IMG/VR virus record: IMGVR_UViG_3300028800_000238
Coordinates: 1 to 32,017 of that record
DNA length: 32,017 bases
From: a virus
Reading direction: 5' to 3' (one strand)
The notes beneath the pieces are model-generated. The model saw only the letters and a program-made list of their open reading frames with translations. It did not search any database and was not told where the DNA came from. Both the position numbers and the translations under genes were made by a program. Positions 5,302-18,073 of the stretch are shown piece by piece (within the stretch, counting starts at the first letter, position 1; the number at the start of each line of letters is the position of its first letter).

Positions 5302-6327
5302 ATGCCTAAGAAGCAATACCGCCTAGACAAGCCGAAGGGATGCGACATCGACGGATGCGTTCGCCCTCATCACTCGAACGGCCTATGCGTAGCGCATTGG
5401 GGTCGTCGGCAGAAGTACGGCGACCCCCTGGCTGGACCACCGCTACGCAAACCACGTAGCGACGCCGGAAAGCCCCGGCAGGGGTACGGGACCGGCCTGA
5501 CGGACGAGTACCACGTTAACCACAAGAAGGTCCGGGAAGCACGGGGGCCGGCGTGGCAGCACGAGTGCGTGCACTGCGGCGAGCAGGCGGCCCAGTGGGC
5601 AACCGTCAAGGGTACTGCGGGAGAAACGCCCGATGAGTTCCTGGCGCTCTGTCTTTCATGTCATGCCAAGTATGACGACTTCGCTTCCAGGATGACCAGG
5701 CCGTCTGGCGAGACCCACCACAGCGCCAAGCTGACCGGGGAGCAGGTCCGCGAGATCAAGGCAAGAGGTTCCGAGAGCAGGTCCGCCCTCGCCCGCGAGT
5801 TCAGCGTCACGTACAGCGTGATTTACAGCATCCACACCGGCAAGATCTGGAAGGGGGCCGGCGGCCCCGAACCCCCTGCGGCCGGCCGTACGCGACCCCG
5901 GCCGGCGGAACGATCCGTAGAGCCCGGCCAGCGGTTCGGCAGGCTCACAGTGGCCGGCCCTGTCATCCGGGAGGCTACGGGCAGGAACCGGAAGGCCGTT
6001 GAGTGCCTCTGCGATTGCGGTACGAGCAAGGTCATCCGCCTGGAGAACCTGTTCCACGGGAACACGAGGTCGTGCGGGTGCCGGCAAAGGGAAACGGGAC
6101 GCGAGAACCGCAGGCTGGCGGTGGAGGCTGGCCAGCGGTTCGGGCGCGGCGTCGTGCTAGAGCCTAACCTGCGCTTCGGTGACAGGCGGCGGTTCGTCAG
6201 GCTTCGCTGTGACTGCGGGCGTGAGTACGTGACCGTGATCTACGCCTTGCTCAACGGCGCCACAGTTTCGTGCGGCTGCCGTCGGCGGGAAACGCAAATC
6301 AGGAGCGGCGAAGGGGGCCGAGGGTAG
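5302..6327 (+). CDS. multi-domain HNH homing endonuclease with zinc modules
   Basis: Domains in order: a zinc knuckle C14-x4-C19-x9-C29-x2-H32; an HNH-type zinc domain (about residues 70-130) with 'NHKKVREARGPAW', 'CVHCGEQAAQW' and 'CLSCHAKYD'; a helix-turn-helix segment 'HHSAKLTGEQVREIKARG' to 'HTGKIWKG'; then two copies of a 'GQRFGR...CDCG...SCGC' zinc module (about 208-265 and 275-330) that probably grips DNA. This layout fits free-standing phage homing endonucleases, which cut a cognate site and spread by repair. It has its own extended -10 promoter and appears leaderless, unlike the neighbours. Its stop TAG is shared with the next GTG, so insertion left the downstream gene in register. 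Family call firm; target site unknown. Confidence 0.85.
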   Translation: MPKKQYRLDKPKGCDIDGCVRPHHSNGLCVAHWGRRQKYGDPLAGPPLRKPRSDAGKPRQGYGTGLTDEYHVNHKKVREARGPAWQHECVHCGEQAAQWATVKGTAGETPDEFLALCLSCHAKYDDFASRMTRPSGETHHSAKLTGEQVREIKARGSESRSALAREFSVTYSVIYSIHTGKIWKGAGGPEPPAAGRTRPRPAERSVEPGQRFGRLTVAGPVIREATGRNRKAVECLCDCGTSKVIRLENLFHGNTRSCGCRQRETGRENRRLAVEAGQRFGRGVVLEPNLRFGDRRRFVRLRCDCGREYVTVIYALLNGATVSCGCRRRETQIRSGEGGRG

Positions 6328-9510: not shown

Positions 9511-11178
9511 ATGAGCAAGAACAACCGGGGAACTGTCCGCCCGGCCGTGGCAAGCCCGGTCGCCACCGAGGAACGCCCGTCGGGAACCACCGCGCTCGGC
9601 GCCCCGGGGTACGCGCGGGACCTCCAGTCGGAACTGTTCCTCCTGGCAGTGTGCAACCTGCCCGGCGAGAAGGCATTCCATGAGGGCACCGACGCGCGGG
9701 TGCTCCGCTTCCGCGACCTGGTGCGCGAGGCGTCTGTGACCGTCCCGGACTGGACCGCCGCCCTGCTGCCGTACCTGCGCGGCCCCGGTAACCTGCGGCT
9801 CGCCCCCGTGGAGGCGGCAGCCGAGTACGCGTGGGCACGCCGCGACGAGGCGGGAACGGGCCGCGAGGTGAGCAACCCGCCGTCAGTGACGGTGCGGAAG
9901 GTCGTTGACTCGGTGCTCCAGCGCGCCGACGAGCCGGGTGAGGTCATCGCCTACTGGCTGGCCCGCTACGGGCGGAAGATGCCGATCGGCTTCAAGCGCG
10001 GCGTCGCCGACGCGGTGCTTCGCCTCTACACGGAATGGTCGCTGCTCAAGTGGGATACCCGTGAGGCCGCGGTGCGGTTCGGCGACGTGATCGAGCTGGT
10101 TCAGCCCCGCTACACCGGGAGCACGTACGGTACCTGGCGGGATGACCTGTACAGGTACGCGATCGAGCGGCGCCACAACCGGGACAACCCGATCCCGGAG
10201 CCGCTGGCGATGATCCGGGCGAACGCGGCGCTGAACGCGGCGGCGGCCACCGACCCGAGGGTGCTGCTCGACACCGACCGTCTGCGGGCGGCCGGGATGA
10301 CATGGCAGAACGTGCTGTCCATGGCCGGGGACAAGGTCGACAAGGGAAAGCTGTGGTCAGTGCTCGCCCCGCTCATGGGATACGACGCGCTCCGGAAGAA
10401 CCTCCGCAACTTCGACCAGGCAGGCATGCCCGATGACGTCGCCGCCGTGGTCGCCGCGCGGCTGTGCGACCCGGAGCAGGTGGCGAAGTCCCGCCAGTTT
10501 CCGTTCCGGTTCCTCTCGGCGTACCGGGCGGCCCCGTCGCTGCGCTGGGCGTACCCGCTGGAGAAGGCGCTGAACGCCTCCCTGTCGAGCGTCCCGGCGC
10601 TCAAGGGCCGCACCCTCGTGCTCGTGGACCGCTCGCCGTCGATGTGGGACCAGAAGTTCAGCGAGCACTCTGACATGCCGTGGGCTGATGCTGCGGCCCT
10701 GTTCGGCGCGGCGGTCGCGCTGCGGGCCGAGAGCGCGGACCTCGTGGAGTTCTGGGGGATGTCACGACCGGTGCCGTTCCGGGCCGGGGACTCGGTGCTG
10801 AAGCTCACAGAGCGGTTCAGCTACCAGCCCGCGCCGGGCGGGACCGATATTCCCTCAGCGGTCCGCGCGCACCTGCACCCGCATCACACGCGGGCGGTCA
10901 TCGTCACCGACGAGCAGACGCAGGCCGGCTACCTGCCGTCGAATATGCACTACCAGCACGGCGGGATGCCCCCGACGCTGATCGACGACCTGGTGCCGAA
11001 GACGGTGCCGCTGTACATGTGGAACTTCGGCGGTTACTCCCGCGGTGCGGCGCCGTCCGGGACGGGAAACCGGGTTACGCTCGGCGGACTGTCGGATTCC
11101 GCCTTCAGGCTTATCCCCATGCTTGAGGCTGGACGTGACTCCAGGTGGGATGACCTGTTCGGGGGCACTGCGGACTAG
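9511..11178 (+). CDS. rsr: Ro60/Rsr TROVE-domain RNA-binding protein
   Basis: At 555 aa it is close to known Ro60/Rsr proteins (about 530-540). Residues 35-360 are the helical TROVE (HEAT-repeat ring) region: 'YARDLQSELFLLAVCNLPG' opens it, with 'YWLARYGRKMPIGFKRGVAD' at the RNA-binding face. Residues 367-555 form a von Willebrand A domain with a complete metal site: D373-x-S375-x-S377 in 'VDRSPSM', T445 in 'GGTDIPSA', D467 in 'VIVTDEQT'. Ro60 binds misfolded RNA ends in its ring and Y RNA on its outer surface; in bacteria Y RNA links it to nucleases such as PNPase. Two Y RNAs lie directly upstream, apparently in the same transcript, and a strong terminator follows. The start has AGGGG 6 bases upstream inside a hairpin. 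The protein is intact, so the RNP is probably functional. Confidence 0.92.
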   Translation: MSKNNRGTVRPAVASPVATEERPSGTTALGAPGYARDLQSELFLLAVCNLPGEKAFHEGTDARVLRFRDLVREASVTVPDWTAALLPYLRGPGNLRLAPVEAAAEYAWARRDEAGTGREVSNPPSVTVRKVVDSVLQRADEPGEVIAYWLARYGRKMPIGFKRGVADAVLRLYTEWSLLKWDTREAAVRFGDVIELVQPRYTGSTYGTWRDDLYRYAIERRHNRDNPIPEPLAMIRANAALNAAAATDPRVLLDTDRLRAAGMTWQNVLSMAGDKVDKGKLWSVLAPLMGYDALRKNLRNFDQAGMPDDVAAVVAARLCDPEQVAKSRQFPFRFLSAYRAAPSLRWAYPLEKALNASLSSVPALKGRTLVLVDRSPSMWDQKFSEHSDMPWADAAALFGAAVALRAESADLVEFWGMSRPVPFRAGDSVLKLTERFSYQPAPGGTDIPSAVRAHLHPHHTRAVIVTDEQTQAGYLPSNMHYQHGGMPPTLIDDLVPKTVPLYMWNFGGYSRGAAPSGTGNRVTLGGLSDSAFRLIPMLEAGRDSRWDDLFGGTAD

Positions 11179-15015: not shown

Positions 15016-15927
15016 ATGCCTGTTGGCGCGAGAGGTTTCAGCGACTCCCCGCGGATCACCGTCTCCGAGCTGCTCAAGGACCCGCTGGTCATCCCGGCGC
15101 TCATCCTGGACATCACCAGGAACGAGTTCATCATGGACTCCGTCCTGCGCATGGGCGGGGCTGCTCCCAGCGGCGCGGTCCGCTACTCGGAGAGCACCCC
15201 GCTGTACGCGGACGACTTCCCGGAGATCCGGGCGGAGTTCGCGGAGGTGCCGGTCGTCCCGACGTCCATCGGCGTGCCCCGCGTCGTGTTCAGCCACGAG
15301 CGCGCCATGGCGATCATGGTGTCGGATGAGATGCGGCGGCGCCAGGCAATTGACCCGGTAACAAGGCAATTGCTCCAGGTCAAGAACACGATGGTTTACA
15401 GCTGGAACACCGCCTTCTATTCGGCCGTGGTGGCGAATGCCTCTATCCAGACGCTGGCCGTCGCGAACCCGTGGGCCTCAGCTTCGGCGACAATCCGCGC
15501 GGATATCGCCCAGGCCGTTTACCTCGTGGAGAATGCGAACATTGTTTCGCCTTCTGGCGTTACCCAGTGGCTCGGCTTCGAAGCCGATACCTTGATCATC
15601 AACCACGGGACGAAGAACACGCTGCTTCAGAGCAGCACATTCGCGGCGCCGTATATCGGCGATATCGCCTCGGAAAACCTCCAGTACACGGGCGTACTGC
15701 CCAACAAGATTTTCAACCTGGACGTGCTGATAAGCCGTCAGGTGCCCGCAGGCAACGCGATCATCATGCAGCGTCAGCGGGCCGGAGGCTACGCCGATGA
15801 GCTGCCGTTCATGGCAGGGCCGCTTTATCGCGATGAGCCAAGAAAGACGTGGCGCTCGGACACGCAGCGTAGTTCTGCGATTTTTCTAGATCAGCCCTTG
15901 GCCGTAGCTTTGCTGAGTGGCGTCTAA
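15016..15927 (+). CDS. major capsid protein (HK97 fold)
   Basis: ATG with AAAGGA 8 bases upstream. At 303 aa it is a typical size. The N-terminal arm 'SELLKDPLVIPALILDIT' is followed by 'ADDFPEIRAEFAEVPVV', then 'VFSHERAMAIMVSDEMRRR' (the long spine helix region) and 'TLIINHGTKNTLLQSSTF', with a C-terminal 'NAIIMQRQRAGGYADELPF' strand region common in this family. Placement after protease/scaffold and decoration genes supports it. No long N-terminal delta domain, consistent with separate scaffold. The 3' half (from about 15340) uses more A/T-ending codons than the 5' half, and an HNH gene follows directly. Confidence 0.85.
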   Translation: MPVGARGFSDSPRITVSELLKDPLVIPALILDITRNEFIMDSVLRMGGAAPSGAVRYSESTPLYADDFPEIRAEFAEVPVVPTSIGVPRVVFSHERAMAIMVSDEMRRRQAIDPVTRQLLQVKNTMVYSWNTAFYSAVVANASIQTLAVANPWASASATIRADIAQAVYLVENANIVSPSGVTQWLGFEADTLIINHGTKNTLLQSSTFAAPYIGDIASENLQYTGVLPNKIFNLDVLISRQVPAGNAIIMQRQRAGGYADELPFMAGPLYRDEPRKTWRSDTQRSSAIFLDQPLAVALLSGV

Positions 15928-16033
15928 ATTCGAATACGTACGCGAACACGGAGAGTTATATGCATCGGGAAGACGAACGAGGGGGGTGGCGTGGAATGAC
16001 CGCTATGCCGCCATTTGTTCGATTCCCGTCGCA

Positions 16034-16095
16034 TATACTGGGATGTAAGGACCCCCGCGACCGGGAGTGGGCTAACACTCCAAACGGCCCGGGGG
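16034..16095 (+). promoter_or_regulatory. promoter box and leader hairpin of HNH gene
   Basis: TATACT at 16034-16039 is a good -10 (no -35 at 17 bases; TTGTTC lies 13 bases upstream). Twelve bases later a tiered hairpin begins: CCCCCG 16052-16057 with CGGGGG 16090-16095, CCG 16061-16063 with CGG 16085-16087, and GGAGTG 16064-16069 with CACTCC 16076-16081 around loop GGCTAA. The hairpin ends 18 bases before the GAGAGG ribosome site. The rest of the ~200-bp gap (15928-16033) shows no gene I can support. Confidence 0.45.
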
Positions 16096-16126
16096 CATGG
16101 CCACACCTGTCTGAGAGGTGCGACGA

Positions 16127-17485
16127 ATGCAGGCTACCCCTGCCCCGAGGATTTGCTCCGTCGAGGGCTGCGGCGCCCCGCTCCGCGCGACGAACACCAT
16201 CGGCCGATGCCGCGAGCACGCCTACGTCCCTGCTGCCGGCGCTGTCTGCGGCGCTGACGGGTGCGGCACGGTTCTCCGCAAGGACAACACCACCGGCTTC
16301 TGCACCCCGCACAAGCGGGCAAAGAGCCGCGGGCCGGTTCCGAAGCGGGACTTCTCCGGCCGCGTCTTCAAGCCCCGCACGTGCCCGGACTGCGGAGTCG
16401 ACTTCAGTCCGCGCAGCGGCAACGACGAGCGCTGCCCCGGGTGCCAGCATCCTCACCGCCTCGCCCTCCGGGCTGAGCGCGAGGGCCGCAACGACCGGGA
16501 CACCTGCTCCGTTCCCGGCTGCGGCGCGAAGCTCCGCACGAGCAACACGACCGGCCGGTGCAGCGACCACCGCTACTACGCCGGCGACCGCCCCGTGTGC
16601 GCCGCTGACGGCTGCGAGCAGGCGCTCCGCAAGGACAACCGCACCGGGTACTGCGACGCCCACAAGTACGCCAAGGACCGCGAGCCTGCCCGGTACTGCG
16701 GCGCTCCCAACTGTGACCGCCAGATCCGGACGGACAATACGACCGGCTACTGCAGCGACCACATTGAGCCCTACTGGCGCACACGGGAGTACCTGGACAA
16801 GCGCAAGGCCGACTACGACGCGCAGCCGAAGGCACCTGACACCCGGCGGACCTGCTCAGCGGACGGCTGCGAGCGGAAGATCCGCTCCGATAACACGACC
16901 GGCCGCTGCACCGATCACGCCTTCATTCACATCGACTGGGCAGTCTGCTCTGTCGACGGGTGCGAGGCGCGGATCAGGCCGGACAACCAGCTGGGCCGCT
17001 GCGTGGAGCACCGCGGCCTCTACTGGGGAGGCGACCCCCCTAAGTGCGGCGAGCCGGGATGCGGCAGAAAGCTTCACCGGGACAACGCCGTTGGCTTCTG
17101 TCACGAGCACCGCGCGGCGTGGCGGGAAGCGTACAACCGGGACTACTACGAGCAGACTCAGGACGAGCGCCGCGAGTACGCCCGTCAGTACCGCGAGGTG
17201 TACGCCGACGAGCACCGTGCCGCTGCGAGCGCGAGGCGAGGCGCGGCCAGGTCTGGCATGGACGATGCCGACCTCACTCTCTCCGCTGCCTATCGGCTTG
17301 CGATCCTGCATGACCCCTGTTGGTACTGCGGGTCACCTGTCACCGACCATGTGGACCACTTCTTCCCGATCGCCAAGGGCGGCCGCGAGTTCTGGTTCAA
17401 CTTGCGCCGCGCCTGCAGTAAGTGCAACCACGCCAAGTACGACAGATGCGGCACTGCTTACCTGCTGCGCAGGGGCCGCCTATGA
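16127..17485 (+). CDS. HNH endonuclease with eight C-x4-C / C-x2-H zinc-knuckle repeats
   Basis: ATG 16127 has GAGAGG 8 bases upstream; GTG 16118 overlaps that site and is less likely. The 452-aa chain carries eight near-identical knuckles C-x4-C-x12-C-x2-H, the first C10-C15-C28-H31, most spaced 31-33 residues apart with one longer gap. Each shares the core 'lR.dNtTGrC..H' (e.g. 'LRTSNTTGRCSDH'). A CxxC...CxxC ribbon ('CPDCGVDF', 'CPGC') sits between knuckles two and three. After a helical Arg/Tyr/Glu-rich linker, residues ~395-440 form the nuclease: 'CWYCGSPV', 'DHVDHFFPIAKGG', 'NLRRACSKCNHAKYD'. The array probably reads a long DNA target in modular steps. It has its own promoter and interrupts the capsid-connector operon; the host gene borders are intact. 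Confidence 0.85.
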   Translation: MQATPAPRICSVEGCGAPLRATNTIGRCREHAYVPAAGAVCGADGCGTVLRKDNTTGFCTPHKRAKSRGPVPKRDFSGRVFKPRTCPDCGVDFSPRSGNDERCPGCQHPHRLALRAEREGRNDRDTCSVPGCGAKLRTSNTTGRCSDHRYYAGDRPVCAADGCEQALRKDNRTGYCDAHKYAKDREPARYCGAPNCDRQIRTDNTTGYCSDHIEPYWRTREYLDKRKADYDAQPKAPDTRRTCSADGCERKIRSDNTTGRCTDHAFIHIDWAVCSVDGCEARIRPDNQLGRCVEHRGLYWGGDPPKCGEPGCGRKLHRDNAVGFCHEHRAAWREAYNRDYYEQTQDERREYARQYREVYADEHRAAASARRGAARSGMDDADLTLSAAYRLAILHDPCWYCGSPVTDHVDHFFPIAKGGREFWFNLRRACSKCNHAKYDRCGTAYLLRRGRL

Positions 17486-17503
17486 CCTAGGGGGTAACGC
17501 CTG

Positions 17504-18073
17504 ATGGCGGACACCGTAACCGCGACTCCGGTCCTCGACCCGCTGTCCTCCGTCGAGCGGGACGCCCTGGCGGAGCTGCTCGCCCGTGACTCCGCGTCCA
17601 AGGGCCCGGCCGGGCGGATCGGCGAGCCCTACGAGGCGCTGATTAACCTGTCGGTTCCCAGGCGGGGCGACAAGGACCGCAACAGCGACCTGGTGCTCGC
17701 CGGCGAGACCGTGTACCTCACCGACGAGGAAGCCCGGAAGTTCAACCGGCACGACCCCGGCCGTGACGGGCGGATGGTGCCGGTGGTCCGCAAGCTGTCC
17801 GGCCCGGACGGCTCCCGTGAGCCCGTCCCGCGCCTGCTGCCCCGTCATGTTTCCGGTCGCCTGTTCCGGCCCGCCATGCCGCCCTCCGGCTCCGACGCGC
17901 CCCGCCCGGACCCGCCGGAGAGCTCGGCCATCCAGGTGATCGAGGAGGGCCGCGCCCCGGAGACTTCCGGCTCGGTGTCGCCGGAGCCGTCCGAGACAGC
18001 CGACCACCTGCGCGAGCCCGTCGCGGACGCCGTTGACCTTCCCCCGTCCCGCACCAGGGCGAGGGGCCGGTAG
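17504..18073 (+). CDS. virion-associated hypothetical protein, 189 aa
   Basis: ATG has AGGGGGT 8 bases upstream. Residues 1-110 look globular ('VERDALAELLARDSASKG', 'ETVYLTDEEARKFNRHDPG', 'RMVPVVRKL'); the rest is Pro/Ser/Glu-rich and probably disordered. Its place right after the capsid gene (if the HNH is removed) is that of head-tail connector or minor capsid proteins in actinophages. No sequence motif proves it. Confidence 0.55.
   Translation: MADTVTATPVLDPLSSVERDALAELLARDSASKGPAGRIGEPYEALINLSVPRRGDKDRNSDLVLAGETVYLTDEEARKFNRHDPGRDGRMVPVVRKLSGPDGSREPVPRLLPRHVSGRLFRPAMPPSGSDAPRPDPPESSAIQVIEEGRAPETSGSVSPEPSETADHLREPVADAVDLPPSRTRARGR

Follow-up and report, generated by a model that had tools for sequence, protein, structure and literature searches.

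The 452-residue HNH nuclease of an uncultured soil phage, whose N-terminal half is an array of putative zinc-binding units, is probably the product of a free-standing homing-endonuclease cassette, which in this tailed phage lies at the start codon of the gene that follows the capsid gene; the array is the likely DNA-binding part of the nuclease, and a two-hairpin leader appears to control its expression. The first-pass annotation had treated the gene as a lone nuclease, and the evidence presented here points instead to a mobile cassette with its own leader. As in the homing family, the nuclease motif is intact, and the gene stands on its own between conserved phage genes and is missing in close relatives. 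Enzymes of this class are known, but a search of open-licence papers returned no account of the long-loop array, of its transfer between nucleases or of the leader they share. The window, i.e. the whole stretch of DNA analysed, is a 32-kb uncultured virus record (32,017 nucleotides), and the gene and its surroundings are as follows.

15016..15927, + strand: major capsid gene, the upstream neighbour (PF25209, E=6.4e-7; PHROG 1650 major head protein, 9.4e-70)
15950..15962, + strand: site where the downstream gene originally began, with its Shine-Dalgarno (GGAGAG) and start codon, now cut off from that gene by the insert
16127..17485, + strand: zinc-module array HNH endonuclease gene, 452 aa (ATG at 16127, stop at 17483-17485)
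17504..18073, + strand: downstream gene, 189 aa, no family match; its start codon is the insertion point

The zinc-module array and its relatives

The N-terminal half of the protein contains nine putative zinc-binding modules, namely eight units (located by motif match) and one C4 ribbon, followed by a linker and the nuclease domain.

16154..16219, + strand: unit 1, CSVEGCGAPLRATNTIGRCREH
16247..16312, + strand: unit 2, CGADGCGTVLRKDNTTGFCTPH
16382..16444, + strand: C4 zinc ribbon, CPDCGVDFSPRSGNDERCPGC, the sole module retained in array-less relatives
16505..16570, + strand: unit 3, CSVPGCGAKLRTSNTTGRCSDH
16598..16663, + strand: unit 4, CAADGCEQALRKDNRTGYCDAH
16697..16762, + strand: unit 5, CGAPNCDRQIRTDNTTGYCSDH
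16853..16918, + strand: unit 6, CSADGCERKIRSDNTTGRCTDH
16946..17011, + strand: unit 7, CSVDGCEARIRPDNQLGRCVEH
17045..17110, + strand: unit 8, CGEPGCGRKLHRDNAVGFCHEH
17111..17266, + strand: basic helical linker from array to nuclease domain; relatives differ in its length and the helices are a low-confidence prediction
17318..17455, + strand: HNH nuclease domain (DPCxYCG..HVDHFFP..N..C..CN..K; PF01844 5.8e-8, PF14279 4.3e-8)

All eight units match C-x4-C-x12-C-x2-H exactly, with first residues at 10, 41, 127, 158, 191, 243, 274 and 307, whereas shuffled versions of the window protein contained a mean of 0.007 units and a maximum of 1 (2000 shuffles). The spacings are 31, 86, 31, 33, 52, 31 and 33 residues, five of the seven falling within 31-33, and the ribbon (C-x2-C-x13-C-x2-C, residues 86-106) sits in the gap of 86 residues that separates unit 2 from unit 3. 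The HNH core (DH...N...CxxC, residues 398-443) is intact, its motif residues are conserved among relatives, and both PF01844 (residues 401-443, E=5.8e-8) and PF14279 exceed their gathering scores. The first-pass annotation had described eight such units, mostly 31-33 residues apart, before an HNH domain; that inventory stands, but it missed the C4 ribbon. Units 3-5 (16505-16762) and 6-8 (16853-17110) form two triplets, both spaced 31 and 33, whose linkers align, which suggests that the array may have grown by triplet duplication. The same annotation had placed a single knuckle at the start of a gene at 5302, and we indeed find one short-loop knuckle at the N-terminus of the product of this second HNH-like gene (window 5302-6327; PHROG 374), for which neither a Pfam match nor a leader match was found.

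The whole-protein AlphaFold model (pLDDT 61, pTM 0.20) was too poor to be fit for structure search. A model of units 3-5, built from 22 unit-triplet sequences, reached moderate confidence (pLDDT 79.7) and gave no significant match to the PDB with Foldseek and VIA-align; its top matches were C2H2 arrays (WT1, YY1, TFIIIA) at E 0.6 or worse and Z 2.1, and the sequence profile likewise weakly matches GLI (E=0.005). The array thus resembles the C2H2 arrays of GLI, YY1 and TFIIIA in its x12 inner loop, its pitch of about 30 residues and these weak profile and fold matches, although shared x12 spacing alone could yield such matches and kinship between the two is only a possibility. In contrast to the C2H2 finger (C-x2-4-C-x12-H-x3-5-H), all eight units have Cys as the third ligand and end in C-x2-H, so that their ligand pattern is not that of the C2H2 class. 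The retroviral CCHC knuckle (C-x2-C-x4-H-x4-C) is ruled out by ligand order and spacing. Pfam CxC6 (PF18721) matches residues 158-215 with 38.7 bits against a gathering threshold of 27.5, a threshold also passed by L062 and L136 while L092 scores below it; the match is likely to be a similarity of spacing.

Relatives 42-68% identical to the window protein keep the array, with 8, 6 or 5 units; proteins with different unit numbers, the search for which had been recommended in the first-pass annotation, were found. Eight units occur in the window, L001, L004 and L007; six in L062, where units 1-2 are removed in frame, and in L092 and L093, the units of the latter including C-x2-C and C-x5-C variants; five in L094. 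L097, L099 and L107 have none and keep the C4 ribbon; all three sit behind the capsid gene. L136, which surfaced in the leader search described below, has a gene (L136:1037-1918, - strand) with five units followed by an Endonuclease VII domain (Endonuclease_7, PF02945, 4e-22), at the same capsid site and behind the same leader as in the window, and its array aligns in register with window residues 152-345, i.e. units 4-8 (BLASTP, 4e-27). Because relatives carry 0, 5, 6 or 8 modules, and because the modules are once joined to a different nuclease, the array is modular, as the first-pass annotation had supposed, and it looks like an exchangeable targeting part. Since HNH relatives without units live at the same place, the array is not obligatory for the site, and the idea that it alone fixes the insertion site is weakened.

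The long-loop array was looked for more widely. A tblastn search with the window protein against 50,697 phage records returned nothing at 1e-5 and one with the L092 protein returned matches to the HNH domain only; long-loop arrays were therefore not found in isolated phages, with the caveat that the BLAST low-complexity filter may hide some. A scan of genome contigs yielded no relative, and a DNA pattern for the unit matched five contigs, none with at least two units in one frame.

Within the units, columns 1, 6, 17, 19 and 22 are invariant, and N occupies column 14 almost throughout. Units with the same number are 73% identical between phages, against 51% for units with different numbers, and the best-matching unit carries the same number in 71 of 96 tests. 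The first-pass annotation had pointed to differences between units at fixed positions, and the variation is in fact concentrated in a few columns, of which 12 and 18 are unit-specific: between units they carry 2.5 and 1.5 bits, and per unit across four phages 0.33 and 0.20 bits, being nearly fixed. L093 repeats the column-18 order of units 3-8, R Y Y R R F; in L092 the order ends in H (R Y Y R R H), and the L136 Endo VII protein reads F F R R F. With dN/dS of 0.27-0.45 over the whole nuclease gene and 0.23-0.44 within the units, purifying selection acts equally on the units, the linkers and the HNH domain.

Two other accounts of the array have to be weighed against its likely role as a DNA-binding part. 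The better of them, to which we give about one chance in four, holds that the array is a low-specificity DNA binder or has RNA or protein as its partner (its own leader or the capsid, for instance), the site being chosen by the HNH domain and the basic helical linker. This would agree with the array-less relatives at the site, which retain ribbon, linker and HNH domain, and with the occurrence of short-loop arrays, another kind, on related HNH domains elsewhere; the unit-specific conservation and the ordered transfer of five units to another nuclease at the same site, however, both exceed the needs of a non-specific clamp. The other account, which we consider unlikely, is a modular base-reading code in the manner of TALE repeats or designed C2H2 fingers, each unit contacting a few bases with a preference set by columns 12 and 18. 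Those columns behave as expected of specificity residues, varying between units and staying nearly fixed per unit across four phages; the column-18 order of units 3-8 recurs in L093, in L092 save for its last residue (H), and in L136 as F F R R F; and the profile matches the GLI, YY1 and TFIIIA fingers weakly (E 0.005-0.2). Against it, structural roles would produce the same pattern and also fit the conservation among orthologues, the spacing is C2H2-like yet the third ligand is Cys, and array-less relatives occupy the same site.

A broader proposition, slightly more doubtful still, would cast the array as a naturally evolved, modular reader of DNA in a phage, in which ordered zinc modules with their own specificity residues (columns 12 and 18) allow a homing cassette to re-target by module reshuffling, its expression being set by a hairpin leader family that serves several nuclease folds. 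Modules could then be added, removed or moved between nuclease domains. To our knowledge, few protein arrays besides eukaryotic zinc fingers, TALEs and PPR/PUF proteins read sequence through units that can be exchanged. The present system would allow a DNA code to be tested directly, since the number of units differs among natural relatives, each unit keeps its identity, and at a single known locus five of them reappear in the same order on a second nuclease.

The two-hairpin leader

The nuclease gene is preceded by a putative promoter and two hairpins.

16034..16039, + strand: -10-like box TATACT of the cassette's putative promoter, at the same position in most aligned leaders
16050..16096, + strand: leader hairpin 1 (GACCCCCG...CGGGGGC), GC-rich, with compensatory changes at 5 of 10 pairs in 18 sequences
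16104..16120, + strand: leader hairpin 2 (CACCT-7 nt-AGGTG), with compensatory changes at 4 of 4 core pairs and 97% of cells paired

In relatives the -10-like box reads TATAAT, TAGAAT or TAGACT. The 3' strand of hairpin 2 contains part of the Shine-Dalgarno of the nuclease gene (AGAGG, 16114-16118). Over the 18 leaders, 92.9% of cells are paired and two-sided changes occur at 10 of 15 pairs; double-sided compensatory cells number 37, against 10.8 when shuffled and 2-9 when slid. No Rfam family matched the leader, even at E up to 1.

A covariance model (R1) finds the leader in L082, L111, L132, L133, L145-L147, L151-L195, L201 and others; the many phages that bear it are largely actinobacterial and include isolated Arthrobacter and Gordonia phages. 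It precedes genes for HNH-AP2 (L082, L111) and NUMOD-type HNH (L133, L097) proteins, as well as Kumotta gp5 (Endo VII), Faith5x5 gp29 (GIY-YIG) and Bauer gp40 (HNH-AP2), some of the gene types behind it having been assigned by reading the sequences; among the covariance-model matches there is one exception to the nuclease rule, L113. A scan with hairpin 1 alone, a test that takes no account of gene content, matched 45 viral contigs, with the hairpin end mostly 24-34 nt upstream of a start codon; of the 38 proteins downstream, Pfam assigned 11 to HNH, 7 to HNH_3, 5 to Endonuclease_7 and 3 to T5orf172. In L161 and L165 the hairpin-1 match lies upstream of a gene for a replication-type protein, not a nuclease, and the usual second hairpin is absent. 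The leader is not general to phages, since each of 17 phage records contains only 0-2 copies.

We read the leader as a shared element that may control the translation of homing nucleases. Its occurrence before HNH, HNH-AP2, Endo VII and GIY-YIG genes suggests one control system for the gene parasites of these phages, and would make it a simple marker for finding such parasites and correcting start codons. Its position suggests that two annotated starts are wrong, that of Kumotta gp5 (L146:2511-3047) being too early and that of Bauer gp40 (L147:2690-3034) too late.

The insertion locus and the carrier frame

The nuclease gene is placed inside the structural operon, between the capsid gene and the 189-aa gene. 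In the comparison set, i.e. capsid homologues 88-96% identical, with their surroundings, the downstream gene follows the capsid gene and the array HNH is absent at 71 capsid loci (some near-duplicates). The distance between the two genes in these insert-less loci is usually within 50 bp; a few carry an unrelated small ORF there, which accounts for intervals of about 220-390 bp. About 10 phages carry the insert, namely the window, L001-L005, L007 and L062, with L016 and L019 partial and L041 represented by its leader. Compared with L010 and L013 over shared stretches of 6.0 and 3.2 kb that reach up to the junction, L011 shows 99.8-99.9% identity; at the junction L011, alone of the three, enters the first unit of an array gene, and its contig stops inside unit 1. 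On the capsid tree the array label requires about 10 changes, which is not an unbiased rate, since the seven rows of the most distant clade were chosen for carrying an endonuclease.

In empty relatives (e.g. L009, L058, L034, L022), CGAACACGGAGCGTAAC..ATG directly opens the downstream gene, whereas occupied phages have this old Shine-Dalgarno and start at the insert's left end and, at its right end, a further start preceded by a Shine-Dalgarno of its own; comparison of the two places the insertion point at the start codon. The divergence of the nuclease gene within the occupied group is about that of its neighbour genes, which indicates an old resident of the group and not a recent arrival in every phage. 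Among relatives without the cassette, only L029-L036 other than L034 (e.g. L036:1538-1810) retain a remnant of it, some 45 bp from its left end joined in frame to another small ORF and probably a scar left by its loss. In L004 (1738-3738) and L005 the nuclease stop is lost and the frame continues into the downstream gene, giving a 666-aa frame. Elsewhere in the structural region of the window phage lies a gene for a TROVE (Ro60-like) RNA-binding protein (window 9511-11178; PF05731, 9e-12); no tRNA was found in the window.

The position within a structural operon could also be taken to mean that the gene serves the phage, as a packaging nuclease or as a weapon against competing phages, and homing endonucleases can exclude co-infecting phages, as in T4 marker exclusion (PMC2988022). 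We regard such an accessory function in place of a parasite as improbable, given that most close relatives with the same operon are without the gene and that exact insertion at a start codon, together with a leader common to many unrelated nuclease genes, argues for a mobile cassette.

The insert is traversed by a second open frame.

15960..17504, + strand: carrier frame, open from the old start codon across the entire insert and lying +1 to the nuclease; its closing TGA and the ATG of the following gene overlap

All five phages with a complete insert (window, L001, L004, L007, L062) have the same start and the same frame, and in L016 and L019 the frame is open as far as the sequence reaches. 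Likewise, all eight leaders of the window group are open from the old start in the frame +1 to the nuclease, the distance from old start to nuclease being 149, 152 or 167, in each case 2 modulo 3. In the five complete inserts no stop interrupts the carrier frame within the nuclease gene, and the frame closes 0-183 nt beyond the point where the start of the downstream gene begins. Synonymous resampling predicts 8.1 stops summed over the five inserts with their own codon usage and 13.1 with that of the window, against 0 observed, evidence that is weaker than five independent draws because the five genes are related; in 11 other nuclease genes of the wider family expected and observed stops agree, at about 63 each. 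Variation over the first 90 nt is flat across codon positions (0.30, 0.36, 0.35), and since there is no codon-position bias a ribosome path, and not a protein, seems to be selected; a functional carrier protein was rejected on the same ground. That the carrier frame is nevertheless the real product and the array a reading artefact, as its openness in every complete insert of the window group might hint, is already refuted by the sequence evidence and can be dismissed, for the Pfam HNH match, the invariant Cys and His residues and the dN/dS below 1 all belong to the array frame. The stop-free carrier frame suggests how the insert spares an essential structural operon from harm.

Proposed mechanism and comparison with known systems

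We propose a series of steps for a homing cassette of this kind. The array, perhaps with the basic linker, would bind the junction between the capsid gene and the downstream gene in an empty phage, the eight modules and the C4 ribbon most likely placing the nuclease on the DNA. The HNH domain would then nick or cut the junction in insert-less phages, and recombination repair from an occupied genome would copy the cassette into the cut phage. The leader, with the ribosome site in hairpin 2, may keep nuclease synthesis low or timed, while ribosomes from the old start would read +1 through the insert to the new start of the host gene; such carrier-frame ribosomes might also open hairpin 2 and hand translation to the downstream gene. 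The modules themselves behave as units that are inherited separately, can be deleted in blocks and can be attached to another nuclease domain. Relatives that lack the array may rely on the linker and the ribbon, or the site may just be a permissive one.

Close parallels are found among the mobile genes of T-even phages (PMC2988022). MobA and MobE are likewise HNH genes that lie between conserved phage genes in the same orientation and have a patchy distribution. The presumed DNA-binding part of T4 Mob proteins is a distinct C-terminal region, whereas here it would be an N-terminal zinc-module array. The ribosome site of MobE and I-TevI is masked by an RNA hairpin, and the regulation of SegB, I-TevI and MobE by such hairpins is similar in idea to the leader described here, in which hairpin 2 contains part of the Shine-Dalgarno and covaries at 4 of 4 core pairs. 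Unlike the T4 hairpins, the hairpin holding the Shine-Dalgarno is here conserved and covarying, and the predicted -10-like box lies upstream of both hairpins, so that a transcript from it would include them. I-TevI also has a zinc module within a homing endonuclease; it is a GIY-YIG enzyme, however, whose single finger is described as affecting cleavage fidelity and is not part of an array.

ShiLan, an HNH endonuclease concealed within an actinophage methylase (PMC11855218), shares with the cassette a zinc-finger HNH protein that is out of frame, an insert that is stop-free in the frame of the host gene and a disjunct distribution. Whereas ShiLan, with two zinc fingers, splits a coding sequence, the present insert lies at a start codon, has nine zinc modules and supplies a new start for the host gene. 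The L136 protein, with its C-terminal Endonuclease_7 domain, has the arrangement of F-CphI, an Endo VII-type enzyme (PMC6083498); F-CphI is not known to carry a zinc-module array, and the window protein differs in being an HNH enzyme.

Finally, the short-loop arrays (C-x4-C-x8-C-x2-H-Y, near Pfam Zf_WRKY19) of isolated actinophages also consist of a row of Cys3His units, variable in number, before an HNH or Endo VII domain. They differ from the long-loop array in having an inner loop of about 8 instead of 12 residues and in lacking the R..N.TG.C core, and their proteins are annotated only as HNH or Endo VII. Examples in isolated Gordonia phages are ClubL gp149 (HNH, L148:2022-2771) and Yvonnetastic gp162 (Endo VII, L150:1983-2588), both of which lie behind a Lysin B gene, with arrays that are 33% identical and nucleases that are different.
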